Shown: one piece after another, positions 1,619 through 56,300 of the stretch
Numbering within the stretch: position 1 is the stretch's first letter
Layout: each line of letters starts with the position of its first letter
DNA from: Nitrosomonas eutropha
GTDB lineage: Bacteria; Pseudomonadota; Gammaproteobacteria; Burkholderiales; Nitrosomonadaceae
Direction: 5' to 3'
NCBI RefSeq assembly: GCF_900116685.1
Contig: NZ_FPBL01000001.1
Location: forward strand, 310,001-374,000
DNA: 64,000 nucleotides
Program-made: the position numbers and the translations under genes
Notes under the pieces: generated by a model
Database searches by the model: none
The model's input: the letters and a program-made list of their open reading frames with translations, nothing else
What the model was told of the DNA's origin: nothing

Positions 1619-3226
1619 TCACGGTAATAACGGCAAACCCAGTTCTTTCAGAAAGGTATTGTGCTTGTTTTTTGCCTGCGCAATCTCCTGCTCAATGTCC
1701 ATCAATTGCTCGTGAGTGGCTGCCAGATCCTCTTCCTTCTCAGCCTCCGCCGTGCTCACGTACCGCGAGATGTTGAGGTTGAAATCGTTCTTCTCGATTT
1801 CTTCCATGCCCACCCGACGAGAATAACGTTCTTCTTCCTTGCGGAACTGATACGTGTTGATAATCTTGTCGATATGCTCGGGCAGCAGCCGGTTTTGCCG
1901 CTTGCCTTTCTCAAAGTACTCGGCTGCGTTGATAAACAGTACATCATCCGGCTTCTTGCACTTCTTCAGCACCAGAATACACACTGGAATGCCAGTGGAG
2001 AAAAACAGGTTGGCAGGCAGGCCGATCACTGTGTCGATATAGCCATCTTTCAGCAATTTGGTACGGATACGCTCTTCCGCACCACCACGGAACAGCACGC
2101 CGTGAGGCAGGATGATGGCCATCACACCGTCTTGCTTCAGGTAGTGAAAGCCGTGCAGCAGAAAGGCGAAATCAGCAGCAGACTTGGGTGCCAGACCATA
2201 ATTCTTGAAGCGCATATCCTCGCCCAGCGCCTCGGTCGGCTCCCAGCGATAGCTGAACGGCGGATTAGCCACTACCGCGTCGAACTTCGGCATCTTGGCC
2301 GGGTTCATTTCGCGCAGGCTGTCCCATTCGTTGGTCAGCGTGTCGCCGTGGTAGATCTCGAACTCGGAATCTTTCACTCCGTGCAGCAGCATATTCATGC
2401 GCGCCAGGTTGTAGGTGGTGATGTTTTTCTCCTGCCCCACGATTCTGCCGATGCCGTGTGACCCCATGCGGTGACGCACATTGAGCAGCAAGGAGCCGGA
2501 ACCGCAGGCAAAGTCGAACACACTGTCCAAATGCTTTCTTGGCCCGGTTTTAGGCTCCTGACTGTCCAGCGTGACGATACCCGAGAGGATGCTGGAAATC
2601 TGCTGCGGGGTGTAAAACTCGCCCGCCTTCTTGCCACTACCCGCTGCAAACTGACCGATCAGGTATTCATAGGCATCACCCAGCGTATCTTTGTCGGTAG
2701 AGAATTTTTCCAGACCATCGGCAATCGCCTTGATGACGGTGCAAAGCGTGGCGTTTTGCGCCGCGTAGCCCTTACCCAGCTTTTCCGAATTCAGGTTGAT
2801 CTCGGAGAACAAGCCGCCAAAGGTGCTGGCAAAAGATTCGTTCTCGATGTAATCAAAACCTCTTTGCAGGGTGTGGAGCAACTCTCCGTTTTGCGTGCGC
2901 GCCATCTCGGCAATACTGCTCCACAAGTAGACGGGCTGGATTACATAGTGCGTTTTGCGGCGCATCTGTTTTTCAAACTCTGCGGTGTCATCAGTGTTTT
3001 GTGTGTACCACACTGCCAGCGGCGCGCGGCGCTCGCCTGCGTCCAGCTTGGGGTAGTCCGAGCCCAGCTCCTTTTGCGCAGCCGCCTCGTAGTTGTCAGA
3101 CAGATAGCGCAGGAACAGGAAGGAGAGCATGTAATCACGGAAGTCGTCCGCGTTCATCGCCCCGCGCAAGGTGTCAGCAATGCCCCAGAGGGTGGTGCCC
3201 AGTTGTTTTTGATCTTGTTCGGTCAT
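1619..3226 (-). CDS. hsdM: Type I restriction-modification system methyltransferase subunit HsdM
   Basis: This 535-residue N6-adenine DNA methyltransferase is the last gene of the hsd operon. It carries an N-terminal HsdM helical domain (about residues 5-150), the GEFYTP motif (202-207), the SAM-binding motif FDFACGSGS (237-245) and the catalytic NPPF motif (321-324). With HsdS it methylates host sites, and with HsdR added it forms the restriction complex. The ATG at 3226 has an AGGAA ribosome binding site and overlaps the stop of the prrC-like gene by 4 bases. Length and motifs are those of an intact enzyme. Confidence 0.97.
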   Translation of the reverse strand: MTEQDQKQLGTTLWGIADTLRGAMNADDFRDYMLSFLFLRYLSDNYEAAAQKELGSDYPKLDAGERRAPLAVWYTQNTDDTAEFEKQMRRKTHYVIQPVYLWSSIAEMARTQNGELLHTLQRGFDYIENESFASTFGGLFSEINLNSEKLGKGYAAQNATLCTVIKAIADGLEKFSTDKDTLGDAYEYLIGQFAAGSGKKAGEFYTPQQISSILSGIVTLDSQEPKTGPRKHLDSVFDFACGSGSLLLNVRHRMGSHGIGRIVGQEKNITTYNLARMNMLLHGVKDSEFEIYHGDTLTNEWDSLREMNPAKMPKFDAVVANPPFSYRWEPTEALGEDMRFKNYGLAPKSAADFAFLLHGFHYLKQDGVMAIILPHGVLFRGGAEERIRTKLLKDGYIDTVIGLPANLFFSTGIPVCILVLKKCKKPDDVLFINAAEYFEKGKRQNRLLPEHIDKIINTYQFRKEEERYSRRVGMEEIEKNDFNLNISRYVSTAEAEKEEDLAATHEQLMDIEQEIAQAKNKHNTFLKELGLPLLP

Positions 3227-4359: not shown

Positions 4360-5362
4360 GACGAACCCCTTTGCGGCGTTTGATTTTGTGCTCCAGTGCT
4401 TTCAGCTCGGACTCGTCTTGCGCGTCGGCGGCGGCGGCTTCGCGGGTTTTGCGTTGCTGGTCGTAATCCTGATACCAGTGGCTGACTTGCTGTTCCATGC
4501 GGGCGTGACTGACGGAGCCCGCCCCTGCCAGCAAAGGGAACCCATTGGCGCTGATGATTTGCCCGATGTTATCGCGCCAGAAACTCATGCTGGTGATGGT
4601 TTGCCTCTTGGCGCGCAGCTCGGCGGTTTCCAGAAAGATCACCACCAGACGATTGAGGGTGTCGATTTCGTCCTCAAGCAGGTAATTCTTGGCCACCACG
4701 ATGTCTTGCTTGCGTACTTGGCCGCCTTTCCAGGTGAGCAAACCAAAATGGACATCGGCAGGGTTGGCGCGGGCGAGGACAATTTCAGCAGCGGTGTGCC
4801 CAGTCACCGCATACAGCAACAGGTTTTGCACCGTGGCAAAAAATTGCTGGGTGGCTTGATCGGTTTTATCGTAATCGGCGGCCAGGGCAAACAGATCACG
4901 CACTTTTTGGTAGAAGCGTTTTTCTGAGGCGCGTATATCGCGAATACGCGCCAGCATCTCATCGAAATAGTCCGGGCGACCATCGGGGTTCTTCAGGCGT
5001 TCGTCGTCCATGGCGAAGCCCTTGAGCAGGTACTCCGCAAGCACGGTAGATGCCCAGCGACGGAACTGCACGCCGCGCTTTGATCGTACGCGGTAGCCCA
5101 CGGCCAAAATGGCGTCGAGATTGTAATGCGCCACTTGGTAGTTCTTGCCATCAGAGGCAGTTGTCAACCATTGGTTGACAACTGCCTCTGATGGCAGCTC
5201 GCCATCGAGAAAAATCGCCTTGAGGTGTTTAGCGATATTCTGCTTGCTGGTTTGAAACAGCTCGGCCATTTCCAGCTGGCTGAGCCATACCGTCTGGCCA
5301 TCGGCGCGCAGTTGAATATGGCTTTGCCCGTCTTCGCTGGTGTAGAGGATGAGGCCGCTCAT
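4346..5362 (-). CDS. RhuM-family protein
   Basis: This 338-residue RhuM-family protein takes its name from rhuM of a Salmonella pathogenicity island; its biochemical role is unknown. The N-terminal region holds the family hallmark, an LTTASDGKNY stretch (66-75) followed by HYNLDAILAVGYRVRS (79-94), and KRGVQFRRW follows. Residues about 26-50 (VWLSQLEMAELFQTSKQNI) look like a helix-turn-helix, so DNA binding is plausible. The C-terminal part is helical and charged. It overlaps hsdS by 4 bases and prrC by 14, so it is translated as part of the hsd operon. RhuM genes are often seen within type I restriction loci. A perfect palindrome lies inside its coding sequence. Confidence 0.88.
   Translation of the reverse strand: MSGLILYTSEDGQSHIQLRADGQTVWLSQLEMAELFQTSKQNIAKHLKAIFLDGELPSEAVVNQWLTTASDGKNYQVAHYNLDAILAVGYRVRSKRGVQFRRWASTVLAEYLLKGFAMDDERLKNPDGRPDYFDEMLARIRDIRASEKRFYQKVRDLFALAADYDKTDQATQQFFATVQNLLLYAVTGHTAAEIVLARANPADVHFGLLTWKGGQVRKQDIVVAKNYLLEDEIDTLNRLVVIFLETAELRAKRQTITSMSFWRDNIGQIISANGFPLLAGAGSVSHARMEQQVSHWYQDYDQQRKTREAAAADAQDESELKALEHKIKRRKGVRHGGD
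5146..5196. repeat. Perfect 25-bp inverted repeat inside rhuM
   Basis: Arms 5146-5170 and 5172-5196 are exact reverse complements with a single base (5171) between them. The repeat falls in codons 56-73 of rhuM, in the family-conserved stretch. No T-run follows on either strand, so it is not an ordinary terminator. It could form a very stable hairpin in the operon mRNA between hsdS and prrC/hsdM. Confidence 0.95.
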
Positions 5363-6558
5363 GCCGCAACCTCACCCTGTGTGGGGAAAAGCTGCTGCAT
5401 CAGGCCTTTTTTGTGGGTTTTGAGCGCGGAAAGCCTTTCCGATTGGTTATTGATGAGATCGTCAATAGAGAGCAGGCAGCGTGCAATCGCTGCTTGTTCT
5501 TCAACATTTATTGGCGAATGAAATTCCAAGTTATCGAATTCCTTCTGGCCCAGTGTCTTGTTCCTGCCAGCTCCGCCAGGAGACGCTATTCCAAGAAGTT
5601 CCTTGCCCTTATTGGTCAAGAAAAAATATTTGATGAAATCAACATCAGACTTGCGTTCGACAGGCTTATACATGGGGAACCGATGAGAGGCGATCATTCC
5701 TCTTTCTGCCGGCGAAGTTACTGCAACAGCTTGCTCCCAAGCGAACACGATATTCAGCACAAAGGCGTTTTCTTCGACTTTAAAAACACGCTTGCCGCCA
5801 AGCGCCTTTCCCAGCACGGGTTCTTTGTGAAATATTCCTTTGCCGTGTGAGCGTATACCAATCTCTCGATATACTTCTTTGACCTCAACGTTTAACGGGG
5901 TTGCCGACCTGACAAGCAGGTTGGATATCTTTCGTTTTTGCCACTCCCCCGTATTCCGAAACTCAGGAAAACGCAGCTTGGGCAGGGTTTTGCCTTCGGT
6001 GGGGAAAAGCTGCTGCATCAGCCCTTTTTTGTGAGTCTTGAGTACGGCGAGCTTTTTTGTTTCCAGCGCAATCAGTCCATCGAGGGAGCCGAGGCAATCA
6101 GCGATTTTCTGTTGCTCAATTACTTCGGGCACTGCAACTTCAATCTTTGCAATATTGGCTTTAGAAAGACTCGGGACGCCGCCCGCCTCGTTATGATCAA
6201 GCCAGTTGATATTCTGAAATATTGCATAGATAAATTTTGGCAAACAGCTTCTAAAAGAGTGCATGTAGAAAAGGGTGTCCACCGTCCAAAACTTTCCTGA
6301 GAGAAATATCGGTTTATCAATGGTTCCCTTTCTTCCAATGCAAACGCTTTCGCCATCATATAAATAACCATCGACCGAAAGCATGTAACCACCTGAACCA
6401 TAGACAGGGACATCTCCACTGGACAAATGCTTATAGTCTTTGCCATTCCCAATAACAAACAGTTCATCGAAAGGCTTAACTTCCCACTCCCCCGCATCCC
6501 GAAATTCGGGGAAGCGCAGTTTGGGCAATAAGGCGCGTTTTTTAGCTGATGACGGCAC
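5359..6558 (-). CDS. hsdS: Type I restriction-modification specificity subunit HsdS
   Basis: This 399-residue specificity subunit recognises the bipartite DNA target for both methylation and restriction. It is built as two target-recognition domains (about residues 15-160 and 205-360), each introduced by an LPKLRFPEFR...GEW motif and followed by a helical spacer ending in LKTHKKGLMQQLFPT. The GTG at 6558 is preferred because TTGAGGA lies 8 bases upstream; a TTG at 6573 would sit inside that ribosome binding site. The 3' end overlaps rhuM by 4 bases. The target sequence cannot be read from the protein. Confidence 0.95.
   Translation of the reverse strand: MPSSAKKRALLPKLRFPEFRDAGEWEVKPFDELFVIGNGKDYKHLSSGDVPVYGSGGYMLSVDGYLYDGESVCIGRKGTIDKPIFLSGKFWTVDTLFYMHSFRSCLPKFIYAIFQNINWLDHNEAGGVPSLSKANIAKIEVAVPEVIEQQKIADCLGSLDGLIALETKKLAVLKTHKKGLMQQLFPTEGKTLPKLRFPEFRNTGEWQKRKISNLLVRSATPLNVEVKEVYREIGIRSHGKGIFHKEPVLGKALGGKRVFKVEENAFVLNIVFAWEQAVAVTSPAERGMIASHRFPMYKPVERKSDVDFIKYFFLTNKGKELLGIASPGGAGRNKTLGQKEFDNLEFHSPINVEEQAAIARCLLSIDDLINNQSERLSALKTHKKGLMQQLFPTQGEVAA
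5383..6042 (-). repeat. Direct repeats bounding the two HsdS half-domains
   Basis: Copies at 5383-5424 and 6001-6042 (42 bp, 39 identical) encode the repeated spacer end. A second, weaker pair at 5941-5985 and 6484-6528 (45 bp, about 37 identical) encodes the repeated start of each recognition domain. Such repeats are typical of HsdS and allow recognition domains to be exchanged by recombination. Confidence 0.85.
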
Positions 6559-7197: not shown

Positions 7198-10176
7198 CTA
7201 TTCATACGCGCGCAACCCTGAAATATCCCGCCCCTGAGCAAGTTTTTTGAGCAGCGGAATCAGCTCTTCCATCAATGTCAGCTCTGCCTTGGTGCGCGCC
7301 TTCCAGCCCAGCTCCAGTGGGGTGAACAACTCACTCAATTGGTCGCCATCGAACACCATACGGCGCAAGGTGATGTCTACAAAGTTTTGGAGAGCGGCGA
7401 TATCAAGTGTGTGTTTGACAGCGATGTCGGCCAGCAGTTGAGCGTGTTTGTCGGCCTTAAAGCGCTCAAACCCGGCGCGGATGGCTTGCTCATCTAGCGC
7501 TCTGCCCGTTTCCAGGGTGTTGATGTATTCGGCAATGTCGTTACGCTCGTCGATGAATTTAGCATCGGATTGGATTAAGCCGATGAGTTGTTCACGGCTC
7601 ATCTTCTGCTTGCCTGGTGTTTGGCTGGTATAGCGAGTAATCAGCGCCATGATGTAGTCGTAATCAATCATCGCGCTGGCAAACAACACAAACTCGAAAT
7701 CAAGCTGCTGCACGGCTGGGTCGATCCCTTCGTCATTTTTACCGTCTTTGTCCTGCTGTGCTTTCAGGCGCTGAGCGATGTCGAGGTACACACCCCTGAA
7801 ACCTTGTAATTGCTCCCTGGGCAGTACCTGCTCGATGCTGACCTTGTTCTCAGGCGTCAGATCAGTGTACTGATCGAGCTGGGTGTTGAGGCGCTGTACT
7901 TCTTTGAACAGGTTGATGAACTGGGCGCGGGCGGCATCACCCTTGAGGTTGGGCACAACTTCGGGTTTGTTTTCCAGCCCTTGCGATTGCATGAACGTAT
8001 CCAGGGTTTGCACGGCCGTTTGCAGCTTTTCGATGACCACCGGGGCCTTGTCCACTAGCCAGATTTCTTTGGCGGGTTTGCTGGCTTCGCCGGAGAACAG
8101 GCCGATGGCGGTATCCACCGCGTCTTGCTGCTGGCGAAAGTCGAGGATATTACCGTAGGGCTTGGTGTCGTTGAGTACGCGGTTGGTGCGTGAAAACGCC
8201 TGAATCAGGCCGTGATACTTGAGGTTCTTGTCCACGTAAAGCGTGTTCAGGAACTTGGAATCGAAGCCAGTGAGCAGCATGTCCACCACGATGGTGATGT
8301 CAATTTTCTGTGCGTGTGGCAGATCGGCATTGGGGTATTGCTGATCCTTGATGCGCTTTTGCACGTCCTGATAGTAGAGATCGAACTCGCCAAGCTGAAA
8401 GTTGCTGCCGTACTGGGCGTTGTAGTCCGCGATGATGGCCTTCAGCGCGTCCTTCTTTTCGTCGGGCGCTTCTTCGTTGTCGGCCTTTTCCTGCGGCAGA
8501 TCTTCCTGAATCTGCTGCACGTCTTTGTTGCCCTCGGCGGGCGGGGAAAACACGCAGGCAATGTTCAAGGGCAGGAAGTCCGCGGTTTCTGCCTGCTTTT
8601 CCACCTGCAAGGTTTTGAATAGCGCGTGGTACTCGATGGCGTCGTTGATGCTGGCCGTGGCCAGCACGGCGTTGAACTTGCGCCCGGCGGTGGCGGCGTC
8701 GTGCTTGGCCAGGATGGCTTCGACGATGGCCTTTTTCGCCAGCGCTTCGCCCGGCTTGGGCTTTGCCTTGCCATCCGGCTTGTAGTAATCGACATGGAAG
8801 CGCAGCACGTTGCGGTCTTCGATGGCGTGGGTGATGGTGTAGGCGTGCAGTTGCTGCTGAAAAATGTCTGCCGTGGTCTTGTAGCTGGCTTGCTGGCCTT
8901 CAATCTGTTGATAGCTGGCGTTTTGATCGAAGATGGGCGTGCCAGTGAAGCCGAACAACTGGGCGTTGGGGAAGAACTCCTTGATGGCCTTGTGGTTCTC
9001 GCCAAATTGCGAGCGGTGGCATTCGTCGAAGATGAACACCATGCGCTGGTTGCGCAATGGCTCCAGGCGCTCCTTGTAGTTGCGCTTGTTGCTGCCGTCT
9101 AGCGCCAGACCCAGTTTCTGGATGGTGGTGACGATCACCTTGTCGGCGTAGTCATCGGAAAGCAAGCGGCGCACCAGCGTTTCGGTGTTGGTGTTTTCCT
9201 CAACGCAGCCTTCCTGAAACTTGTTGAATTCCTCGCGGGTTTGCCGGTCGAGGTCTTTGCGATCCACCACGAACAGACATTTATCGATGTCGGGGTTGTC
9301 TTTCAGCAGGGTGGAGGCTTTGAACGACGTGAGTGTTTTGCCGCTGCCGGTGGTGTGCCAGATGTAGCCATTGCCGCAGCGCTGGTGGATGCATTCGACA
9401 ATCGCCTTGACCGCATAGATCTGATACGGGCGCATCATCAGCAGCTTTTGCTCGCTGGCCACCAGCACCATGTAGCGGCTGATCATCTGGCCCAGCGTGC
9501 ATTTGGCGAGGAAGGCATCAGCAAAGCCGTCCAGATGGGTGATGGGGTTGTTGTCCACATCCGCGTACTGGTAGAACGGCAAAAAACGCTCGTCAGCGTT
9601 AAAGCTGAAGTGGCGGCTGTTGTTGTTGGCGAAGTACCCGGTAGTGTTTCGGTTGGTGACAATGAATAGCTGCAAAAAGCACAGCAGGGTTTTGGTATAA
9701 CCGTTGCCGGGATCGTTCTTGTAATCGACGATCTGCTGCATCGCCCGGCGCGGGCTGATAGCCAGCGTTTTCAGTTCGATCTGCACTACCGGCACACCGT
9801 TGATCAGCAGAATCACATCAAAGCGGTGATGGCTGTAGTCGGTGTTGATGCGCAGTTGGTTGACCACTTCGAAGTTGTTCTTGCACCAGTCCTTGATGTT
9901 GACCAGCGTGTAATAGAGCGGCGTGCCGTCGTCGCGCTCAAAGCTGTTGCGTTCGCGCAGGTGCTTGGCGGCGGCGAATACATCGGGGGTGACGATGGAA
10001 TCAAGCAGGCGGGCGAATTCGCTATCAGTGAGTTGAACGCGGTTGAGCGCCTCGAAGTGCTGGCGAAAGTTCTGTTCCAGCGCGGCGCGGTCGCGGATAT
10101 CCGGGCGATAGATGTACTTGAGATCCTCCAGCTTCAAGATCAGATCACGCTCGATCTGGTTTTCTGTTGTTGCCAT
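7198..10176 (-). CDS. hsdR: Type I restriction enzyme subunit HsdR
   Basis: This 992-residue restriction and translocation subunit is the first gene of the operon. The N-terminal nuclease has Asp120 and ELK (134-136) as the PD-(D/E)xK core. The superfamily 2 translocase has Walker A HTTGSGKT (274-281), DECH (384-387) and TGTP (411-414), and the C-terminal helical part binds the methyltransferase core. The complex pumps DNA with ATP and cuts unmodified DNA far from the site. All key residues are present and no frameshift was seen. The ATG at 10176 is followed by five further co-oriented genes. Confidence 0.97.
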   Translation of the reverse strand: MATTENQIERDLILKLEDLKYIYRPDIRDRAALEQNFRQHFEALNRVQLTDSEFARLLDSIVTPDVFAAAKHLRERNSFERDDGTPLYYTLVNIKDWCKNNFEVVNQLRINTDYSHHRFDVILLINGVPVVQIELKTLAISPRRAMQQIVDYKNDPGNGYTKTLLCFLQLFIVTNRNTTGYFANNNSRHFSFNADERFLPFYQYADVDNNPITHLDGFADAFLAKCTLGQMISRYMVLVASEQKLLMMRPYQIYAVKAIVECIHQRCGNGYIWHTTGSGKTLTSFKASTLLKDNPDIDKCLFVVDRKDLDRQTREEFNKFQEGCVEENTNTETLVRRLLSDDYADKVIVTTIQKLGLALDGSNKRNYKERLEPLRNQRMVFIFDECHRSQFGENHKAIKEFFPNAQLFGFTGTPIFDQNASYQQIEGQQASYKTTADIFQQQLHAYTITHAIEDRNVLRFHVDYYKPDGKAKPKPGEALAKKAIVEAILAKHDAATAGRKFNAVLATASINDAIEYHALFKTLQVEKQAETADFLPLNIACVFSPPAEGNKDVQQIQEDLPQEKADNEEAPDEKKDALKAIIADYNAQYGSNFQLGEFDLYYQDVQKRIKDQQYPNADLPHAQKIDITIVVDMLLTGFDSKFLNTLYVDKNLKYHGLIQAFSRTNRVLNDTKPYGNILDFRQQQDAVDTAIGLFSGEASKPAKEIWLVDKAPVVIEKLQTAVQTLDTFMQSQGLENKPEVVPNLKGDAARAQFINLFKEVQRLNTQLDQYTDLTPENKVSIEQVLPREQLQGFRGVYLDIAQRLKAQQDKDGKNDEGIDPAVQQLDFEFVLFASAMIDYDYIMALITRYTSQTPGKQKMSREQLIGLIQSDAKFIDERNDIAEYINTLETGRALDEQAIRAGFERFKADKHAQLLADIAVKHTLDIAALQNFVDITLRRMVFDGDQLSELFTPLELGWKARTKAELTLMEELIPLLKKLAQGRDISGLRAYE

Positions 10177-42699: not shown

Positions 42700-43689
42700 T
42701 TACAGATGATCCAGCGGGCTGACCACGCCTTTACCACCTTTGTTCAGTACATGGGTATAAATCATTGTGGTGGTAACATCACTATGCCCCAATAGCTCTT
42801 GCACTGTACAAATATCGTAGCCAGCTTGTAAAAGATGCGTGGCAAAGGAATGGCGCAGGGTATGTGGTGTGGCCGGCTTGGTCACTCCCGCTGCCAGCAC
42901 TGCCTTCTTCATCGCACGCTGCAGCAATTTTTCATCCATATGATGACGTCGCTCTACCCCGCTGCGCGGATCAACTGAATAGCTCTTGGCAACAAAAATA
43001 TACTGCCAAATCCAGTCAGTCGCCGCCTTGGGATATTTTCGCTCCAGTGCATCTGGTAAATACACTGCGGCCATATCTTTAGCCAGATCATCCTCGTAGA
43101 GCAATCGCCGGTGTCGTATATGCTCATTCAAAATCGGGATCAAACTTTGCGGCAACATTGTTACCCGATCTTTCGCCCCTTTGCCATCGCGCACCAGTAT
43201 TTCAGCTCGCTCAAAATCCACATCTTTAACCCGCAAACGTACACATTCCATTAACCGCATACCGGTGCCATACAGCAAGCGTGCCATTAAACCATGTGCT
43301 CCTTCCATCCGACCCAATACCGCCTGTACCTCATTATGCGTCAGCACCACTGGCAAACGTGCCGGCCGCTTTGCTCGCACCACGTTGTCAAACCAGGGCA
43401 AATCGATTTCCAGCACTTCCCGATATAAAAACAGCAAAGCTGAAAGTGCCTGATTCTGTGTTGATGCCGCCACCCTGCCCGATACAGCAAGATGTGTCAG
43501 AAAAGCCTCAACCTCCCCGCCCCCCATCTCCTGTGGATGCCGTTTATCATGAAATAAAATGAAGCGCCGTACCCACTGGACATATTGCACCTCAGTCCTT
43601 ATGCTGTAATGCTTTAAGCGCAATTTATCACGAAGCTGATCAAGTAACTTGGGTGAAGTCGGCGCAGGAGATGGTGGCATTTTATTCAT
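42700..43689 (-). CDS. intI: Integron integrase IntI (tyrosine recombinase)
   Basis: This 329-residue tyrosine recombinase has catalytic Arg145, His276, Arg279, His302 and Tyr311. It carries the extra IntI patch (about 221-262, including [17 protein letters not shown] and [13 protein letters not shown]) that separates integron integrases from XerC/D and allows binding of folded single-stranded attC. It is oriented away from the cassettes, as in most integrons. Length is normal and no frameshift was seen, so it should be active. No LexA box was recognised upstream. Confidence 0.96.
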
Positions 43690-43802
43690 ACTTCTTTTAA
43701 ATTCATCATGTTACCAAATAATAAATTTGTTATACACCTTCTTGCAAATAAGTATACACCGCTTGCGGTGTATACTTAACGTTAGGTGTGTTGGAGACAT
43801 CG
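43690..43802. promoter_or_regulatory. Putative attI site and intI/cassette promoter region
   Basis: The first cassette joins at the GTTAGGT core at 43781-43787. Just upstream is a palindrome of 12-bp arms (43751-43762 and 43765-43776, AGTATACACCGC) around a TT loop. On the minus strand TTGCAA, 17 bases, then TTATTA could be the intI promoter. A cassette promoter reading rightward was not evident. AGGAG-like GGAG at 43793 serves the first cassette gene. Confidence 0.55.
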
Positions 43803-44426
43803 ATGCAAGAAGCAAAATGCCCAGAATGCAATAGCACACAACTGTTCCGTAGCGTCCCAACAAGCACTTACGGCGGCAATGAGGAAGGACTCTCTATCTT
43901 GCCTGGTCTTGGGTCAAAGCTATCTGCAGCCAAGTTCACCACAGTCTGTTGCAAAGACTGCGGCTTAATTCAGGTGTTAGGCATCAGGAATCCTATGCAC
44001 GGTCATTGCCTCTGCGGACAAGTCGAGTTTGAAATTGTTGGCGAGCGTTTCAAGCTCTACCAATGCCATTGCTCCCTTTGCAGAAGGCAAGGCGGTTCGC
44101 TATCTAATGCCGCCACAATTGTTCCGAGCGAAAAATTTCGGTGGCTTGGCGGTGCAGGGCTCATCTCGTCGTGGAAGAAAGAATCCGGGTTCCGCTCTGA
44201 TTTTTGTGCCATCTGCGGCTCTCCCGTTCCGAATCCGCTTAGGAACCTGCCTTACTTTTGGGTTCCTGCTGGGCTGCTTGGCGGCAACGGCGGTTTGGAA
44301 ATCGTTGCCCATCTATGCGTGGCTTCCAAAGCCGCATGGAACTCCGCCCTCCTTCAGGGAGCTTGCTATGACGAGTTGCCAAACCTCTTGGAGCTCATCT
44401 CGCTTCTACAGGTAACCGATGCCTAA
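43803..44426 (+). CDS. Cassette 1: zinc-ribbon plus GFA-domain protein
   Basis: This 207-residue protein joins an N-terminal zinc-ribbon-like part (CPEC, then CCKDC, residues 4-53) to a GFA/CENP-V domain with CLCGQVEFEI, QCHCSLCRRQGGS and FCAICGSPVPN, the cysteine pattern that binds zinc in glutathione-dependent formaldehyde-activating-type proteins. The ATG at 43803 has GGAG 7 bases upstream; a GTG at 43788 is less likely. The stop lies within the attC core. GFA domains bind small thiol adducts, but the activity of cassette versions is unproven. Confidence 0.85.
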   Translation: MQEAKCPECNSTQLFRSVPTSTYGGNEEGLSILPGLGSKLSAAKFTTVCCKDCGLIQVLGIRNPMHGHCLCGQVEFEIVGERFKLYQCHCSLCRRQGGSLSNAATIVPSEKFRWLGGAGLISSWKKESGFRSDFCAICGSPVPNPLRNLPYFWVPAGLLGGNGGLEIVAHLCVASKAAWNSALLQGACYDELPNLLELISLLQVTDA

Positions 44427-44484
44427 CCTTTCGTTCGAGAGGGACGGTAAGCCGGCTTCGCGCCCCTCAACTCAAACGTTAGCC
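44421..44484 (+). repeat. attC site 1
   Basis: It starts with GCCTAAC and ends with GTTAGCC, with a central imperfect inverted repeat. It contains the stop codon of cassette gene 1. Confidence 0.88.
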
Positions 44485-44501
44485 ACACAAGGAAGCAGTG
44501 T

Positions 44502-44774
44502 ATGCAGCACTTTGAAATAGGCGTCCTTTCGTTTGTCTTCGCAATCACCCTGCCGGTCATCTACTTCATCGGCTATCAAGTGAGGCGGCTTGGTGCATGG
44601 TCAAAGCGTGAGGCACGTCCGGGCGATCGCATCGGGTTCTTTCTCATCATGGCGCTTGTGCTTGGGTTTGTGTTCGGCAGTTTCGCGCAACCGCTTTGGT
44701 CGGCCGGCGTGAGTTGCCACGCGGCAGGTCAGCCAGTTGTGCCTTGTGTCCTCAACTTGGGTGGGCATGTCTAA
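44502..44774 (+). CDS. Cassette 2: small membrane protein
   Basis: This 90-residue protein has two hydrophobic helices (about 7-25 and 45-66) separated by a basic loop, and a short cysteine-containing tail (SCHAAGQPVVPC). The ATG is 17 bases inside the cassette with AGGAAG upstream, and the stop falls in the attC core, as is normal for cassette genes. No family was recognised. It is probably an inner-membrane protein. Confidence 0.7.
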   Translation: MQHFEIGVLSFVFAITLPVIYFIGYQVRRLGAWSKREARPGDRIGFFLIMALVLGFVFGSFAQPLWSAGVSCHAAGQPVVPCVLNLGGHV

Positions 44775-44825
44775 CATTTCGTTCAAGGCGGACGGCTTCG
44801 CCGCCGCTTAACTCCAGCGTTATGC
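44769..44825 (+). repeat. attC site 2
   Basis: GTCTAAC to GTTATGC, 57 bp, with a GGCGGACGGC...GCCGCCGC stem. It closely resembles attC 7. Confidence 0.88.
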
Positions 44826-45268
44826 ATCAGTCAGATAAGCAAAAGGCAGCGAAAGCCCACACGAGAAAGTCGCTGGAAATCTATTACGAATTCCAATTTC
44901 GCTCGCTTGTTCAAACAGGGGAGCTTCTTACAAAAGGAGTAGCGTACTACTTCACCATCTTAGCTGCTATTGGCGGTTATCTCTATACTGCCAAACTACC
45001 TCTCGTCGAACAGAGACTACTTGTTATCGTGAGCCTTATCGTGTCTACATTGTTTGCTTTTATCATGATCGTGGTCGGCTATGGGGTGCTAAAAGGAATT
45101 GGTCAAATGGAGCGCACACTTGCGAAATACAACTCAAATGAATTTGAGGCGATAGCCATGCCACAGTATTTTCGCCGCGGCAAGATTGTAGGTATCATGG
45201 TCGCTTTATGTTGCCTTGGCATTTTGTTTGTGATCGCTAGCACATTTGCGATCAAGATTTATGCATAA
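44822..45268 (+). CDS. Cassette 3: membrane protein whose start lies in the attC core
   Basis: This 148-residue protein has three hydrophobic helices (about 43-58, 67-93 and 118-146) and a short charged N-terminus (MHQSDKQKAAKAHTRK). The ATG at 44822 is made from the GTTATGC core of the preceding attC, with no ribosome binding site visible before it, so translation may be leaderless or coupled to cassette 2. The stop is in attC 3. Family not recognised. Confidence 0.68.
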   Translation: MHQSDKQKAAKAHTRKSLEIYYEFQFRSLVQTGELLTKGVAYYFTILAAIGGYLYTAKLPLVEQRLLVIVSLIVSTLFAFIMIVVGYGVLKGIGQMERTLAKYNSNEFEAIAMPQYFRRGKIVGIMVALCCLGILFVIASTFAIKIYA

Positions 45269-45320
45269 CACGTCGTTGCACTCTGACGCGCAAGCGCGCC
45301 AGTGAACTGAAACGTTAAGC
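45263..45320 (+). repeat. attC site 3
   Basis: GCATAAC to GTTAAGC, 58 bp, with a GACGCGCAAGCGCGCC-type stem. Confidence 0.87.
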
Positions 45321-45323
45321 GTC

Positions 45324-45779
45324 ATGGGGAAACGTATGCGCGCACTCATTACAGCGATCCTTGCGTTGGTCAGCGCTGGTTCAGCTGCGCAGCCATCAGT
45401 TGAAGCAATGACGGCAGAGGTCACTGACAACGTTGCAACTGAGCATGCCGAATGCTCGGCCCTTTTCGCCATTGCTCAGGGAGCTTTTCTGAGCTCAGGA
45501 AAAAGGCCTGAGGCAGCGAAGTTCAAAGACGCTTCGAATTATGCCGCACAATTTTCTCTCGTGGTGGCTAAGCAGAGTCGCTCGCAAGAAATAGCAACGA
45601 AAGTTACGCTAGCGCGCATCGAAGTAAGCATAAAAGATATGCAAAAGACTATTGAATACAACTACAGCAACATGTCCCTGCTATTAAGTAGATACCTTGA
45701 ACCGTGCGTGCAGACTATGAATGGCTCTGAGCCACTGTTTCAGAGATGGACCGAGAAAATTCAGCAGAAATATATATGA
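45324..45779 (+). CDS. Cassette 4: exported protein of unknown function
   Basis: This 151-residue protein has a signal peptide (about 1-22, ending SAGSAAQ) and a mature alpha-helical domain with two cysteines (Cys44 and Cys128). The mature sequence, with TEHAECSALFAIAQGAF and SLVVAKQSRSQEIATKV, suggests a helical bundle. The ATG lies 4 bases after the cassette boundary. No family was recognised. It is probably periplasmic. Confidence 0.68.
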   Translation: MGKRMRALITAILALVSAGSAAQPSVEAMTAEVTDNVATEHAECSALFAIAQGAFLSSGKRPEAAKFKDASNYAAQFSLVVAKQSRSQEIATKVTLARIEVSIKDMQKTIEYNYSNMSLLLSRYLEPCVQTMNGSEPLFQRWTEKIQQKYI

Positions 45780-45805
45780 AACCTCTAGCAACAAACGTCA
45801 ATGAC

Positions 45806-45874
45806 GCCTAACTCTGCGCTCAACCTGACGCCCAACGGCTGCGCGCTCCGGAGCAGGTTAGCTCCACGTTATAC
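45806..45874 (+). repeat. attC site 4
   Basis: GCCTAAC to GTTATAC, 69 bp. It begins 26 bases after the stop of cassette gene 4. Confidence 0.83.
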
Positions 45875-45895
45875 GAAAAAGGGATTGATAGGGAT

Positions 45896-46570
45896 ATGAA
45901 AACGCGGTTACTGACAATTCAGTTTGCACTCTTCTTCCGCGACATTATTGAACGTCCAGACACGGCATTCTCTGGGCTGAATGAGCGCATGATTAATCTA
46001 TTCGACGGAATGCCGTCCATGCTTCCGGTGCCAAGGGAACTCCCGCCGGAAATTCCTATTGTTACCCTTAGATCAGAGAAGGACGGCTACAGCTGTAATA
46101 TATCGAGATCTCGCATTGACCTTCTGTTCTCGCGTTCCGATGACAAAAAGCAGAACAAGGACATTTTTAAAGACTTCAACATTAAGGTTGCCGCTTTCTC
46201 AAAGTATGTCTTTGAAAAGCAGGATGTCATTCGCTTTGGCTTGATAGCTCGCTACTTCAAGCAGGACAACGATGCCGTTTCAACCATAAGGAAGAAGTAC
46301 TTCAGCAACGCTGTTGAGTCGGTTGCCGAACTCAGTCTCAGGTACAACGCGCAATCTTCAGTCCAGAAAAAAGTCATCAACGATGTTGTGGAAATTGGGG
46401 CGAATCAGCTGATCTTCAATGGACAGACTATAGACGGAGTGCTTGTACAGCGCGACATCAACAACGCCCCTGTGGTGAATGAACTGTTGTCACTTCAAGA
46501 GCTTGAGAAGCTATCGACTGAGTTGTCTGGCCGCATCTCGGAGGAAATGATCGAGGCACTCATCTCATGA
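45896..46570 (+). CDS. Cassette 5, first gene: soluble protein of unknown function
   Basis: This 224-residue protein without signal or membrane segment starts at an ATG with GATAGGGATA upstream. It begins LLTIQFALFFRDIIERPD and carries a long N-terminal beta-rich region followed by DVIRFGLIARYFKQDN and a helical tail. The look is loosely like TIGR04255-type proteins, but this is not secure. It overlaps the second gene by 4 bases (ATGA), so the two products are made together. Confidence 0.7.
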   Translation: MKTRLLTIQFALFFRDIIERPDTAFSGLNERMINLFDGMPSMLPVPRELPPEIPIVTLRSEKDGYSCNISRSRIDLLFSRSDDKKQNKDIFKDFNIKVAAFSKYVFEKQDVIRFGLIARYFKQDNDAVSTIRKKYFSNAVESVAELSLRYNAQSSVQKKVINDVVEIGANQLIFNGQTIDGVLVQRDINNAPVVNELLSLQELEKLSTELSGRISEEMIEALIS

Positions 46571-46971
46571 CAGTGTCTACATCATCGTCTGTTGTGTCGG
46601 CTCCTCCCGCATCATCATCTTCACCGGGACCAATTGGAGCTGTTCCTCCAACGCCATTGGTTGGTACTCAGGGAAATTCGGAAGATAGTTGGTGGAAAAA
46701 GCCGGAGGCGTTGATTGCTATGATGGGCATGGCGCTAACCGGCGTAATCGGGTACTTCAGTTCTTCATGGACTGTGAAAGAGTCTGTTTCAAGGCTTTCA
46801 TCGAACGTGTCTGTGCTCGCCGAGCGCGTAAACAATTTGTCTGATCGCGTCTCAGAAGCTAAGTCATCGTCAGCGTCCGTGCCCTCGATCGAGCGCGATA
46901 TAGCAGTTATTCAAGTAAAGATTGAGGCGAATGCCAAGGCGATCGAAGAACTGCGCCAAAAAGCGAAGTGA
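46567..46971 (+). CDS. Cassette 5, second gene: single-pass membrane protein with coiled coil
   Basis: This 134-residue protein has a Ser/Pro-rich N-terminus (1-38), one transmembrane helix (about 48-64, ALIAMMGMALTGVIGYF) and a C-terminal coiled coil (about 70-134) with regular hydrophobic spacing (VSRLSSNVSVLAERVNNL). It looks like a membrane anchor with an oligomerising tail. Its coupling to the upstream soluble protein suggests that the two form a complex. Confidence 0.7.
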   Translation: MTVSTSSSVVSAPPASSSSPGPIGAVPPTPLVGTQGNSEDSWWKKPEALIAMMGMALTGVIGYFSSSWTVKESVSRLSSNVSVLAERVNNLSDRVSEAKSSSASVPSIERDIAVIQVKIEANAKAIEELRQKAK

Positions 46972-46974
46972 TTC

Positions 46975-47044
46975 GTATAACAATAGGTTCCAGCCGACGT
47001 GACCGCCGAAGGCGGTCACGTCGGCTGGAACCTAGGCGTTAGGA
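46975..47044 (+). repeat. attC site 5 with a perfect stem
   Basis: GTATAAC to GTTAGGA, 70 bp. Arms 46984-47007 and 47011-47034 are exact 24-bp reverse complements around GAA. The last base of the R' core departs from GTTRRRY. No extrahelical base can form in the stem. Confidence 0.85.
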
Positions 47045-47050
47045 GGCCAA

Positions 47051-47638
47051 GTGTCGCTGCTGCCGCTTCTTGTTGCGCCGACCGAGTTCTACCACTTCGC
47101 AACGACTGTGCTTCGTGAGATAGCTCCGCTGAACGAAGAAGAGTATCGAACCAATAGCTTGGCGCGTCGGGCTTCGTACAGCTATCTCAATGAACTTGTT
47201 GAAGGTGCGTTCAAGCTTGCTTCAAATGAACTCACTGCTCGTGGCCATAGGCCCGAGAAGACATACCGATTGCGGTTTCAGCAGGCGGCTGCATTAGGCG
47301 TGTTTCCAACCGTCGTTGCTGAGAGACTGGTTAATCTAGCTGTATTGAGAAACCGTTCAACACACGAAAATAAGGTCGTCAATGATGAGCTTGAACTGTT
47401 CCCGAAGTTGTTGGAGCTTGCCGTCATTGGCTTTGGGTTGTACGAAATTGCCTCAGCTTTGCCTGCGGCCCAACCGCGTGTCATTGCCGTTGACGCGACT
47501 TATGTGTGGAGCAAATTGAGCACTGCTTCTGCTAACGACGATTGCGGCGGAGCGACCGACAAACTCAAGGAGAAGATCACTGTGTATGACGCTTGGCTCT
47601 TTTGCGAAATGCTGCCAAGTTCGCGGCCAGCCTCCTAA
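47051..47638 (+). CDS. Cassette 6: candidate HEPN-domain protein
   Basis: This 195-residue, mostly helical protein starts at GTG with a strong AGGAGG at 47041-47046, which overlaps the preceding attC core. Residues 100-105 read RNRSTH, matching the R-x4-H active-site motif of HEPN RNases with the usual polar residue after the arginine, and lie between two long helices as in that fold. HEPN domains act as RNases or nucleotide-modifying partners in toxin and defence systems. No antitoxin is encoded in the same cassette. Assignment is by motif only. Confidence 0.62.
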   Translation: MSLLPLLVAPTEFYHFATTVLREIAPLNEEEYRTNSLARRASYSYLNELVEGAFKLASNELTARGHRPEKTYRLRFQQAAALGVFPTVVAERLVNLAVLRNRSTHENKVVNDELELFPKLLELAVIGFGLYEIASALPAAQPRVIAVDATYVWSKLSTASANDDCGGATDKLKEKITVYDAWLFCEMLPSSRPAS

Positions 47639-47711
47639 CCCTTCCATCAAGGGGGACGTCCACAATCAGGCTTCGCCTGCTTGTGGACGTCTCCCATGTC
47701 AAACGTTAGGT
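47633..47711 (+). repeat. attC site 6
   Basis: TCCTAAC to GTTAGGT, 79 bp, with a long GGACGTCCACAA...TTGTGGACGTC stem. Confidence 0.85.
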
Positions 47712-47775
47712 CTGTACGGCAAAACTATCGTTCTCCGAATGTTTCACCAAATACGGCGCGAAGCTGGTCAATCCT

Positions 47776-48315
47776 ATGTCGGCCGCTTCCGCACAAGCAG
47801 CTGACGGTGCAATCGTGATTAGCTGCTGGAGCAATTATTTTAGCCACTTCGACAAAGAGACGCTCCGTTACACGGATACCCTGTCGCGCTGGGAGGATAA
47901 TTCTGCCGGCAACAACCTTCTCCGGAAGCACCTATTATTCGCTCAAGCCGATTCGCTTCCTATCCGCCTCGTCGTAACTACTGCACAGAACACTCTGGCG
48001 ATAAATCAGGGTTGGGACGCCAGCAAGATCACCAAGACCTTCCATATAAAGCCAGATGTCATTGGGCAACTTACGTTCTTTGATGGAGATCAGTTCACCA
48101 TCGACTACAGGTCTAACAAATCGTTCGAGGCGGACGGCCACGCCGCCGCTCAACTCAAGCGTTATGCCGCAGTAATTGACCTACTCACACCAAGAGTAAC
48201 ACTATGTCCAGCTCTATCCGCACTTGTCTCTGGTTCCGAGACGGGTGAGGCCGGGAAGCCGAGTCGAGAGGATCTTTTCTGGCGATGCGGGAAACGGCCC
48301 TTTCTCGGTAATTGA
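47776..48315 (+). CDS. Cassette 7: unknown protein, probably damaged at both ends
   Basis: From the ATG at 47776 the frame gives 179 residues, but it is already open from 47710, reading KLSFSECFTKYGAKLVNP before the first Met. An ACG at 47716 stands where an ATG would be expected. Downstream the frame passes through attC 7 (48111-48167) without a stop and ends at 48315 inside the next cassette, unlike all its neighbours. The core includes SRWEDNSAGNNLLRKHLL and KTFHIKPDVIGQLTFFDG; no family was named. It is best read as a decayed or start-less cassette gene. Confidence 0.5.
   Translation: MSAASAQAADGAIVISCWSNYFSHFDKETLRYTDTLSRWEDNSAGNNLLRKHLLFAQADSLPIRLVVTTAQNTLAINQGWDASKITKTFHIKPDVIGQLTFFDGDQFTIDYRSNKSFEADGHAAAQLKRYAAVIDLLTPRVTLCPALSALVSGSETGEAGKPSREDLFWRCGKRPFLGN
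48111..48167 (+). repeat. attC site 7
   Basis: GTCTAAC to GTTATGC, 57 bp, very like attC 2 in sequence. The cassette 7 reading frame runs across it. Confidence 0.86.
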
Positions 48316-48631
48316 TTTCTCGCTCAGCGGGGTGCCTTACCAGATTCTCGACACTGGGCCACATTTCACCTCAACTGAGGCAATATCGATTTCGGTCGAA
48401 ACGGCCGAGACTGATCGACTGTGGACCGCGCTGACCGCAGATGGTGGCGAGGAAAGCGCCTGCGGCTAGCTGAAAGATCGCTACGGGGTCTCGTGGCGGA
48501 TTTTCCCGAGAAGACTGACGGAATTGACGATGAATGCAGACAAGAATGTTTCTGCCAAAGCGATGGCAGCCGTGATGAAGCAAAAGAAAATTGACATCGC
48601 TGCAATTGAAGCAGCAGCGGTTCGTGACTAG
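48204..48631 (+). pseudogene. Cassette 8: decayed VOC/PhnB-like gene
   Basis: The start reads MSSSIRTCLWF and then breaks. A second frame continues RVERIFSGDAGNGPFSVIDF and on to ESACG, where TAG replaces the expected TGG. The same frame then runs LKDRYGVSWRIFPRRL to a proper stop at 48629-48631. Joined, this is a PhnB-like VOC-superfamily protein (about 150 residues). A deletion of some 35-40 bases near 48235-48260 and the amber codon at 48467-48469 disable it. Confidence 0.82.
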
Positions 48632-48640
48632 AAGCCCGCG

Positions 48641-48700
48641 GCCTAACAATTCATTCAAGCCGATACCGCTTCGCGGCTCGGCTAAATTCAGGCGTTAGGC
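48641..48700 (+). repeat. attC site 8, end of the cassette array
   Basis: GCCTAAC to GTTAGGC, 60 bp. No further attC was found to the right. Confidence 0.87.
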
Positions 48701-48852: not shown

Positions 48853-49162
48853 GCCTGTTCAAAATCTTTTTCTTGGTAGATACTCCCTGGATGAGAAAAC
48901 ACTATCCCAGCAACATTAGTCGCGAGCAGTTTGAGCAGGTGCACCTGTTGCCGGACGGTTTTCCGAAGTGGTGCATGCATACTTTACGATCTGGAGTGAG
49001 CCTGCTGGAGCGGGCATTAAAAAAATCAGGTTGGCGAGGTTTCGCCTGGCTGGAAAAGAATAAAAGACTGTGGAAGAAAACTGTGAACGAATGATCAACA
49101 CCAGCTTGCAGTTTATCCACCTGGCCTTCCTGGCCGTTCTACTCAAAAGACTTTGAACAGGC
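48853..49162 (+). mobile_element. Internally deleted IS5-family-like element
   Basis: Terminal inverted repeats GCCTGTTCAAAATCTTTT (48853-48870) and its complement with one mismatch (49145-49162) bound 310 bases that contain only pieces of a transposase gene. Target duplications were not evident. Confidence 0.75.
48891..49156 (+). pseudogene. Remnant of an IS5-family transposase
   Basis: It starts with MRKHYPSNISREQFEQ, the N-terminus of IS5-type transposases, then jumps to DGFPKW, GVSLLERALKK and finally FAWLEKNKRLWKK. A one-base frameshift leads to the terminal CERMINTSLQFIHLAFLA stretch, with TGA at 49154-49156. Most of the catalytic DDE domain is missing, so it can only move if an active relative acts on its ends. 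Confidence 0.8.
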
Positions 49163-49246
49163 TCTAAGACCCTTAACTAAATATTTTTTAATAACTTTTA
49201 AATTCATTTTTTCTCATAAATTATTTTTTGCAACAGATCTGAAAAC

Positions 49247-55093: not shown

Positions 55094-56212
55094 ATGAACC
55101 AAATGAAAAATTTTACACAGCCGATCAGCCTTTCCGGTGGCCTGCCATTTGTTCGTAATTTACTGGCAACCGCCTGTTTTCTTGTTATGGCTCAGGCAGG
55201 AGCAGCCGGTTTTATTACCGATGCCAAACAGATTTCAGGGCAGGAAGTCAGGTCCGGTGAAGGGTATTACCGTGCTGATGGTAACTGGCTGGTTTATCAG
55301 GCAGAAGTTGCTGGTGAGAATCCTTTTTACCAGATTTATCTGAAAAATCTTGCCAGTGAGAATGTGCAGCAGATTTCACCTGGCATTGGCAAAACCACTT
55401 GTTCGTGGGTACATCCTTCCCAGGAGAAGGTGTTGTTTTCTTCAACCCATGACGATCCCGAAGCCAAAGCCAAGATGGTTGCTGAGATTGAGCAAAGAAA
55501 ATCTGGCCAGCGCAGGGCGTATGCCTGGGATTATGACGAATTCTACGATATCTATGAAGCTGATTTCGAAGGCAAAAACATCAAAAACCTTACCAATATT
55601 AAAGGATACGATGCGGAGGCTTCCTGGTCGCCAGATGGTAAGCTGATTGCATTTGCCTCCAACCGCCGGGCTTACAGCGAGCCGCTTACCGAAGAAGAAA
55701 CTGCACTGTTCAACAATAACCCTTCTTCCCTGATCGATATTTACATCATGGATGCAGATGGCTCCAACGTAAAAAGACTGACGCATACCAATAGCTATGA
55801 CGGTGGCCCGTTCTTCAGTCCGGATGGAAAAAGGATCGTTTGGCGTCGTTTCTCCGAGAATGGGCAGGAAGCAGAAATATTCACCATGAATATTGATGGA
55901 TCGGATCAAAAGCAGCTTACCCGGCTCAACAAGATGTCTTGGGCACCTTTTTATCACCCATCCAATCAGTACATTATTTTCGCAACCAACGTTGAGGGGC
56001 ATCGGAATTTCGAGCTTTACATCGTTGATGTTGATGGCAAGAAAGAACCCATACGGGTAACGGAGGAAGAAGGATTCGATGGCCTGCCGGTATTTACACC
56101 GGATGGCCAGTACATCACCTGGACCAGCGACCGCACACCTGATAAAAAAGGCCGTCTTTTTCACGGCAAATGGAACCATGAAAAAGCACTGGGAAGTCTG
56201 GGGTTGAAATAA
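55094..56212 (+). CDS. TolB-like beta-propeller protein, exported
   Basis: This 372-residue protein has a signal peptide and six or so PD40/TolB-type repeats, seen as WSPDGKLIAFASNR, FSPDGKRIVWRR and FTPDGQYITWTSDR. It should fold as a propeller in the periplasm. It is not TolB itself: there is no tol-pal context and no TolB N-terminal domain. The start is uncertain: ATG at 55094 (TGAGG upstream), 55103 or 55085 all fit, while the frame is open further to 54944. It is divergent from the large peptidase gene and may share its promoter region. Confidence 0.8.
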   Translation: MNQMKNFTQPISLSGGLPFVRNLLATACFLVMAQAGAAGFITDAKQISGQEVRSGEGYYRADGNWLVYQAEVAGENPFYQIYLKNLASENVQQISPGIGKTTCSWVHPSQEKVLFSSTHDDPEAKAKMVAEIEQRKSGQRRAYAWDYDEFYDIYEADFEGKNIKNLTNIKGYDAEASWSPDGKLIAFASNRRAYSEPLTEEETALFNNNPSSLIDIYIMDADGSNVKRLTHTNSYDGGPFFSPDGKRIVWRRFSENGQEAEIFTMNIDGSDQKQLTRLNKMSWAPFYHPSNQYIIFATNVEGHRNFELYIVDVDGKKEPIRVTEEEGFDGLPVFTPDGQYITWTSDRTPDKKGRLFHGKWNHEKALGSLGLK

Positions 56213-56214
56213 AT

Positions 56215-56242
56215 AACCACTGGTTAAAGTCAGTGGTTGTTT
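56215..56242 (+). terminator. Terminator of the beta-propeller gene
   Basis: AACCACTG and CAGTGGTT form 8-bp arms around 8 bases, followed by GTTT, 3 bases after the stop. Confidence 0.7.
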
Positions 56243-56245
56243 AGT

Positions 56246-56282
56246 CTGGCTGACAGTTGTAAAAAATAAAACTGTCAGCCAG
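56246..56282 (-). terminator. Terminator hairpin between convergent genes
   Basis: Perfect 13-bp arms (56246-56258 and 56270-56282) around an A-rich loop, 18 bases after the end of the cytochrome gene read on the minus strand. It may work in both directions. Confidence 0.55.
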
Positions 56283-56300
56283 CATCAACTCAGCCCAGCT

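Follow-up and report, generated by a model that had tools for sequence, protein, structure and literature searches.

The 64,000-nucleotide stretch of the Nitrosomonas eutropha genome analysed here (hereafter the window, to which coordinates refer unless another locus is named) contains a chromosomal integron at 42700-48700, with an integron integrase gene (intI), a predicted attI site and eight cassettes (Table 1). The fifth cassette carries two overlapping genes, here named A and B, which also occur on very small plasmids of Enterobacterales. Taken jointly, and leaving any role in defence aside, it is very probable that the locus is an integron and that A/B is a real module. As an integron it is ordinary, with the stable platform and changing content that are usual for chromosomal integrons; what makes it noteworthy is the A/B module and, to a smaller degree, the attC site behind it (attC5).

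Integron platform and attC sites

The eight attC-bounded cassettes share a single orientation and lie on a 534 kb contig, in keeping with an earlier reading made from the letters of the window alone (the original prediction), which had called the integron chromosomal. Its coordinates and its count of eight cassettes were also right, the gene in cassette 8 being broken. The genome encodes ammonia monooxygenase (PF02461, E 6.5e-114), which in combination with the integrase points to Nitrosomonas. Leon and Roy are said to have described in 2003 a chromosomal integron of Nitrosomonas europaea, probably of the same genus as the one reported here, whose integrase reportedly excises and integrates cassettes.

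The intI product is a full-length IntI, scoring 487.9 bits against TIGR02249 (cut-off 265), and its residues 16-328 align with the structure of Vibrio IntI4 (2a3v, E 2.8e-93). Read from this alignment, R145, H276, R279, H302 and Y311 are all present; we take these to be the catalytic residues, and the claim that the integrase had its full set was thus borne out. From the same alignment, P241, H249 and H250 are the counterparts of VchIntIA P232, H240 and H241, which hold the extrahelical attC base according to the available part of PMC3053210. Within the genus, the three most similar copies of the integrase have identities of 97% and 87% (in the relatives G001 and G012) and of 74% (a copy with one stop). 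Beside intI lies a GTTAGG crossover motif, and a perfect hairpin (43750-43777) stands directly before the crossover G at 43781. The 24-base core of this hairpin is the same in G001 and G012, and we predict that the region is the attI site. By established integron biology, IntI would recombine folded single-stranded attC with attI, so that cassettes would enter beside intI and the oldest would end up distal.

Sites of attC were sought with a covariance model (R1) built from 23 attC that a script had located at eight loci in other members of the genus and order (L022, L023, L025, L027, L028, L029, L031 and L032; the window genome was not used) and run unfiltered across the whole window on both strands. 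A strict regular expression had recovered only one of the eight sites, because the two ends of an arrayed attC stem from different cassettes and need not match, and the covariance model was used instead. Of the cells in the assumed structure (R arms, L arms and inner stem), 86.9% pair; shuffling lowers this share to 74.6%, and sliding the structure by 1 to 3 columns lowers it to 42.3% or less. No shuffle reached the covariation score, and the remaining structure measures were reached by 0 to 5 of 500; speaking against the assumed structure, the both-sided changes seen in 10 of 17 pairs were equalled by 41 of the 500 shuffles. R1 gave nine matches at E <= 1 in the window, comprising seven array sites at E <= 1.9e-5, attC5 at 0.19 and one off-array match (3018-3048, E 0.86). 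Seven attC are therefore firm and the eighth, attC5, is in place though abnormal. The original prediction had counted eight attC by eye and had named a covariance search as its decisive check; all eight were recovered.

Table 1. Features of the integron and its distal edge in the window.
Feature	Position	Strand	Basis or content
intI, integron integrase, 329 aa	42700..43689	-	TIGR02249, 2a3v alignment
attI region (predicted)	43690..43781	+	hairpin and crossover motif
Cassette 1	43782..44478	+	ORF 43788-44426, 212 aa, GFA domain behind Cys-rich N terminus
attC1	44421..44484	+	R1 E 2.2e-11
Cassette 2	44479..44819	+	ORF 44502-44774, 90 aa, two hydrophobic segments; no Pfam family
attC2	44769..44825	+	R1 E 5.4e-10
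Cassette 3	44820..45314	+	ORF 44822-45268, 148 aa, two hydrophobic segments; no Pfam above cut-off
attC3	45263..45320	+	R1 E 3.2e-6
Cassette 4	45315..45868	+	ORF 45324-45779, 151 aa, signal-peptide-like start (by eye)
attC4	45806..45874	+	R1 E 1.5e-9
Cassette 5, two-gene A/B module	45869..47038	+	overlapping ORFs between attC4 and attC5
Gene A, 224 aa, without hydrophobic segment	45896..46570	+	ORF, family alignment
Gene B, 134 aa, 4-nt overlap with A	46567..46971	+	ORF
attC5, near-perfect palindrome	46975..47044	+	R1 E 0.19, 14.8 bits
Cassette 6	47039..47705	+	ORF 47051-47638, GTG start, 195 aa, HEPN/HepT-like
attC6	47633..47711	+	R1 E 1.9e-5
Cassette 7	47706..48161	+	ORF 47776-48315, open through attC7; no Pfam family
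attC7	48111..48167	+	R1 E 4.4e-10
Cassette 8	48162..48694	+	3-dmu-9_3-mt (VOC-type) gene, broken, with fragments in different frames
attC8	48641..48700	+	R1 E 3.5e-9
IS5-family transposase remnant, distal array edge	48993..49169	.	plasmid records annotated IS5 transposase, 79-82% (among matches listed)

A two-gene module in cassettes and on small plasmids

Relatives of A were found by tblastn in 26 of 72,556 plasmid records, with 24 of the matches covering at least 80% of A and the plasmid proteins being 27.5 to 39.4% identical to that of the window. All but two of these plasmids are 2.6 to 8.8 kb in size (the others are 20.5 and 30.7 kb), and their hosts are Enterobacterales in 25 cases and Flavobacterium in one. 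A closer inspection of seven of the 26 records revealed an intact small second gene right behind A in five; in the remaining two, B is split by the record start (L064) or the 30.7 kb plasmid is rearranged (L065). Several plasmids of 2.6-4.1 kb carry A/B with few other annotated genes. A reverse plasmid search with B gave six records; five of them have A as well, and the sixth has just a fragment of B. Of 5,426 complete Escherichia coli genomes, six have one subtype, always on plasmids, and none has the other. PLSDB types three of the seven records read as ColRNAI. One plasmid, pHW42, is described as ColE1-like in PMC2831885, which suggests that some genes of unknown function might be beneficial; the part of that paper available describes no A/B gene of pHW42.

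Outside plasmids, A/B was found in a gammaproteobacterial metagenome-assembled genome (L069), in Candidatus Ruthturnera (L070), on an IMG/VR contig (L071), in genome G558 (L075) and in G025 (L048), a genome of the same genus as the window. A and B are adjacent in all 11 loci where both could be read whole (the window, L048, L062, L063, L066, L067, L068, L069, L070, L071 and L075), overlapping by 1-4 nt in ten and separated by a 2-nt gap in L066. These 11 leave aside L064 and L065, for the reasons given above, and L061 and L077, which are the L070 locus; G225, with a weak A match lacking a recognisable B, was left out of the alignments.

Matches to attC (E-values from searches of 4.5 to 7 kb) lie on both sides of A/B in G025, upstream at 942-1001 (E 1e-11) and downstream at 2042-2120 (E 0.031). 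In L069 there is one upstream (5914-5972, E 1.3e-4), and in L075 there are two, directly upstream (9309-9379, E 0.0045) and one gene further upstream (8263-8334, E 2.9e-5). On these matches, A/B is an attC-flanked cassette in three genomes besides the window (L048, L069 and L075). The G025 copy moreover resembles that of a 3.6 kb Klebsiella plasmid, its A being 40% identical over 221 aa and its B 38% over 77 aa (E 6e-17), and the G025 and plasmid B proteins have in common a KPKTPAQI stretch and a hydrophobic C-terminal half. Judged by its proteins, this copy bridges the cassette and plasmid forms of A/B.

Across 12 aligned A proteins, 20 columns are invariant. In an unrooted tree of 12 A proteins, one branch (support 97/96) splits all six plasmid members from the six others, and it was found in 95% of 200 bootstrap trees; the Rahnella row sits on a long branch and its position is unsure. 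With a single supported branch, one move between cassette and plasmid, in either direction, suffices.

A number of results weigh against this account. The match downstream of B in L069 reached only 6.4 bits (E 1.7), and the downstream attC of L075 was seen by eye and not detected by R1. The phage-like contig L071 has a weak upstream attC only (E 0.017), and R1 at default filters and E <= 1 found none at the Ruthturnera locus or in six plasmid stretches. A is, furthermore, rare: counting the window genome each time, it is present in 2 of 321 genomes from the class, in 3 of 398 from the phylum (one of them weak), in 2 of 61 relatives and in 2 of 85 genomes from the genus. Among phage records, tblastn with three A proteins gave no match; in viral scans, two plasmid A proteins found no relatives and alignment A9 recovered L071 alone. 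Taken with the sites above, the matches nevertheless show that A/B recurs as a cassette in several lineages and on tiny enterobacterial plasmids.

The surroundings of two of these copies were also read. The stretch 7781-12587 of L075 has small same-direction genes around A/B along with its two attC matches and may be an integrase-less cassette cluster; no integrase was noticed by eye and none was searched for. The stretch 1-5898 of L048 consists mostly of cassettes and also encodes an AadA-type adenylyltransferase and a T5orf172/MUG113 protein.

Candidate functions of A and B

Gene A had no acceptable Pfam or NCBIfam match, and the best match of a PDB profile search (E 0.028) was not credible. 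Ten of 11 A members match phrog_24110, and ten match phrog_22817, at E <= 1; both are phage families of unknown function. Used as a family query, phrog_24110 found the window's own genome alone among 398, along with one control match in Methanocaldococcus jannaschii. The sporadically distributed family TIGR04255 has an R-I/F-G motif and adjoining segments in register with the A profile. However, the hhalign probability was 4.5% (E 0.0091, 13 family members used) and TIGR04255 was absent from the direct NCBIfam scan of A, which is accordingly not placed there. None of six plasmid A/B protein accessions, nor TIGR04255, was found in the literature searched, and the pair may have been described elsewhere.

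The product of B has a Ser/Pro/Thr-rich start, one hydrophobic segment and a coiled-coil-like tail (by eye). Its best 19-residue hydropathy is 1.57, narrowly below the threshold of 1.6 that is passed by nine of ten B proteins tested. Matches of coiled-coil type are weak, for example to the spanin-like phrog_739 (E 3.6e-4), and the G025 B scores 17.1 bits against the holin family PF16083, below the cut-off of 28.4; both would fit a membrane effector and prove nothing.

Our first guess, a tentative one, is that A/B is a candidate two-gene phage-defence system of the abortive-infection type. Cytosolic A would sense infection or restrain B, and B, a small membrane protein, would act as the effector that damages the cell membrane. 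The module is small, mobile, rare, carried on vehicles with little else, and pairs a soluble with a membrane protein, which is the shape of several abortive-infection systems such as RexAB and Kiwa. Lambda RexAB and Kiwa KwaAB likewise have two genes, for one soluble and one membrane protein, and may serve as a working model; RexB and KwaA have four hydrophobic segments each, whereas B has one or two. Among the listed PADLOC and PHROGs matches of A and B none was named Rex or Kiwa, the PHROGs naming of Rex families being unchecked.

Defence was proposed because of this shape and because it is frequent among cassettes. In the available part of PMC12409362, at least 16 of 179 cassettes of Vibrio cholerae and nine of 57 tested cassettes of V. 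parahaemolyticus are protective. The defence cassettes of sedentary and mobile integrons covered there (Darracq 2025, Kieffer 2025) are, in the same portion, likewise small and of unknown function, usually with one gene and at times more, about a tenth being protective in V. cholerae. They differ in that the present array, of eight cassettes, belongs to an ammonia oxidiser, and that A/B is known from sequence alone and has no credible PADLOC match.

The family searches weigh against this guess. PADLOC gave nothing for A of the window and only part of DruC for B (E 0.0074), with no credible match for any of the ten ORFs scanned; when ten A members were scanned, SspC (E 0.0016) and JetA (E 0.013) each came up for a single member, and neither match is credible. 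An AlphaFold2 model of A from four sequences (pLDDT 41.9) was too poor for use. No cassette in the window, by these comparisons, credibly matches a known defence family. The original prediction had raised phage defence as a role of integron cassettes; none of the PADLOC matches sustains this here, and what stands is a role that we infer for A/B and perhaps for the HEPN-like cassette 6. The available main text on DefensePredictor makes no mention of ColE1 or 'small plasmid' (PMC13092281).

After defence, the reading that we rank second, and regard as rather unlikely, is that A/B serves the mobile element that carries it, by excluding related plasmids or phages or through a bacteriocin-like function of small plasmids. 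The plasmids of 2.6-4.1 kb with few other annotated genes would suit such a role, as would the copy on the viral contig L071, which adjoins lysozyme-, spanin- and terminase-like genes (assigned by eye; no family search was made). Against this, A/B is an attC-flanked cassette in four genomes, and in three of them the locus lies on a contig of 382-534 kb, without involvement of a small plasmid. Ranked third, and unlikely, is a toxin-antitoxin stabilisation module in which B would be a membrane toxin and A its antitoxin, such that loss kills the cell. Two small overlapping genes with the membrane protein second, carried on very small plasmids, would be in keeping with this, and toxin-antitoxin cassettes are known in integrons. 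Such cassettes usually bring their own promoter, however, and only 21 nt separate attC4 from the start of A, with no promoter-like site listed there on the + strand; nor did the family scans give A or B a credible match to a toxin or antitoxin.

A palindromic attC site

The two arms of attC5, of 24 bases each (46984-47007 and 47011-47034), form a perfect inverted repeat around a loop of 3, and the site folds equally well on both strands (-54.1 and -54.2 kcal/mol, RNA parameters). Among 94 other attC the longest perfect arm is 16 bases and the median 6, with only one site reaching 12. Of 104 matches, ten had been set aside (one duplicate, three that were partial and the six that scored lowest), and the 94 that remained include the 23 R1 sites and five of the genome's own second array. 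The left arm of attC5 scores 12.7 bits, in the range of the other seven sites (0.2 to 17.5), whereas the right arm is not normal; this arm-score test is rough, the right arm of attC4 also scoring low, apparently through a one-base offset.

As set out in the part of PMC3053210 available, attC sites are imperfect palindromes whose unpaired bases are important when the integrase recognises the bottom strand. The right arm of attC5 may have been rewritten from the left by template switching in a quasi-palindrome. With one arm perfected by copying the other, the recognition asymmetry would be lost and strand choice by IntI at cassette 5 weakened; if so, the cassette would be locked in place or would insert in both directions.

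It is improbable that attC5 is no attC, but an intergenic hairpin of another kind or an error of the assembly. Its low R1 score of 14.8 bits invites the idea, as does a second perfect palindrome in the same window, of 51 bases (5146-5196; 25+1+25), which lies inside an intact coding gene of 338 aa. But the ends and spacing of attC5 fit an attC, its place is precisely at the boundary of two cassettes, and the score of its left arm resembles those of the left arms of other sites. Moreover, the second palindrome lies in an ORF without interruption, which makes a misjoin unlikely. In 483,387 bases examined, window included, only two other palindromes had arms of at least 14 bases (15 and 16). For the occurrence of two perfect palindromes in the window we can offer guesses only, namely template switching or the lack of a hairpin nuclease. 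The 338-aa ORF resembles a RhuM-type gene (by eye).

The remaining cassettes and the state of the array

The cassettes were predicted to be mostly of unknown function, and indeed Pfam families at or above cut-off were found for three of the eight only: GFA in cassette 1, a HepT-like family in cassette 6 and the broken 3-dmu-9_3-mt gene of cassette 8. Similarly, the statement that none is a known resistance gene agrees with the Pfam and NCBIfam scans, which contained none, no dedicated resistance database having been searched. The GFA protein of cassette 1 scores 69.1 bits against PF04828, and the gene has a 73% DNA match in G012. Cassettes 2 and 3 are predicted by hydropathy to encode small membrane proteins. 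The product of cassette 4 looks exported by eye; it had no Pfam family above cut-off and no PDB match.

Cassette 6 resembles the HepT/HEPN ribonuclease toxins in its match to PF01934, just above cut-off (24.9 bits, cut-off 23.5), and in an R-x4-H motif (by eye). It differs from them in falling below the NCBIfam cut-off (NF047751, 35.1 bits, cut-off 60), in the absence of an MntA-type partner from the cassette and in its length of 195 aa. No partner antitoxin was found, the cassette having one long ORF in the coding direction and the cassette ORFs scanned giving no nucleotidyltransferase match. The protein had no plasmid relative and no PDB match, and among 293 genomes of the class it was matched in its own alone.

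The match of cassette 8 to PF06983 lies on 48224-48469. In G001 the gene is intact (156 aa), on another contig than intI and beside the same 538-aa gene as in the window, which is presumably DhaK-like. An intact copy in this setting makes cassette 8 probably the old, shared end of the array. Entry of cassettes at attI, with the old ones distal, fits a last cassette that is common to a relative yet broken here.

In a DNA search of 60 relatives, gene-level matches among those listed were found only for cassettes 1 and 8, the rest being attC-like; at most four candidates per genome were scored, and further copies of the other cassettes may exist. The original prediction had argued from diverse attC sequences that the cassettes came from many donors. 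Diversity of attC alone is weak evidence for this.

Parts of the array may be decaying, since cassette 8 is broken and attC5 abnormal. It is nonetheless improbable that the array is largely a relic that is no longer mobile. Beyond the broken last cassette and the palindromic attC5, an IS5 remnant at the array edge would suit a relic, as would the promoter evidence: a consensus scan for a Pc promoter stayed at chance level, with 4 promoter-like sites found against 5.8 expected, which also leaves expression of the array unproven. Conversely, IntI is intact and 97% identical in G001, seven of the eight attC are normal, and the absence of listed gene-level DNA matches for cassettes 2-7 among the 60 relatives suggests turnover.

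attC sites elsewhere in the genome

Outside the window, R1 gave eleven matches at E <= 1 in the same genome, whilst a hand-made pattern found no further attC. Five of the eleven lie on contig C18, where they form a second array (L043 6260-10424). Between two attC of C18 lies a BglI-type restriction-modification cassette, with genes for the methylase, the endonuclease (PF14562, 401.9 bits) and the control protein; the array also has an SMR efflux gene. Integron-integrase matches in the genome number six, that of the window at E 1.6e-224 and the next among those listed at 3.2e-16, with three more ranking lower. With no other listed match of integron-integrase grade, the C18 array seems to be without an integrase of its own. 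As the BglI-type cassette is complete, the host, by its predicted genes, has a defence system of known type among its cassettes, outside the array described here.

The remaining attC-like matches are scattered off both arrays (C15:79983-80040, C17:42860-42931, C17:43075-43133, C25:156532-156581, C12:13108-13171 and C9:8052-8111), with E from 2.7e-7 to 0.46. The window also contains, at 56205-56287, a match to Rfam psRNA14 (RF02351, 84.8 bits).

Implications

Put in full, our proposal is that A/B may be an undescribed anti-phage (or anti-mobile-element) system that moves both by cassette and by plasmids of 2.6-4.1 kb, with A sensing or restraining and B damaging the membrane, and with the attC5 palindrome locking the cassette in place or permitting both directions; we consider this possible and, on balance, doubtful. 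Whatever its function, attC5 would offer a natural case of strand choice by an integrase without attC asymmetry. A/B occurs on two unrelated vehicles of small cargo, where there is little room for useless genes, and from this recurrence it is probably of use against phages or competing plasmids. Knowing its function would reveal the purpose of a set of cryptic enterobacterial plasmids and would bear on how far integrons store defence genes outside the vibrios.

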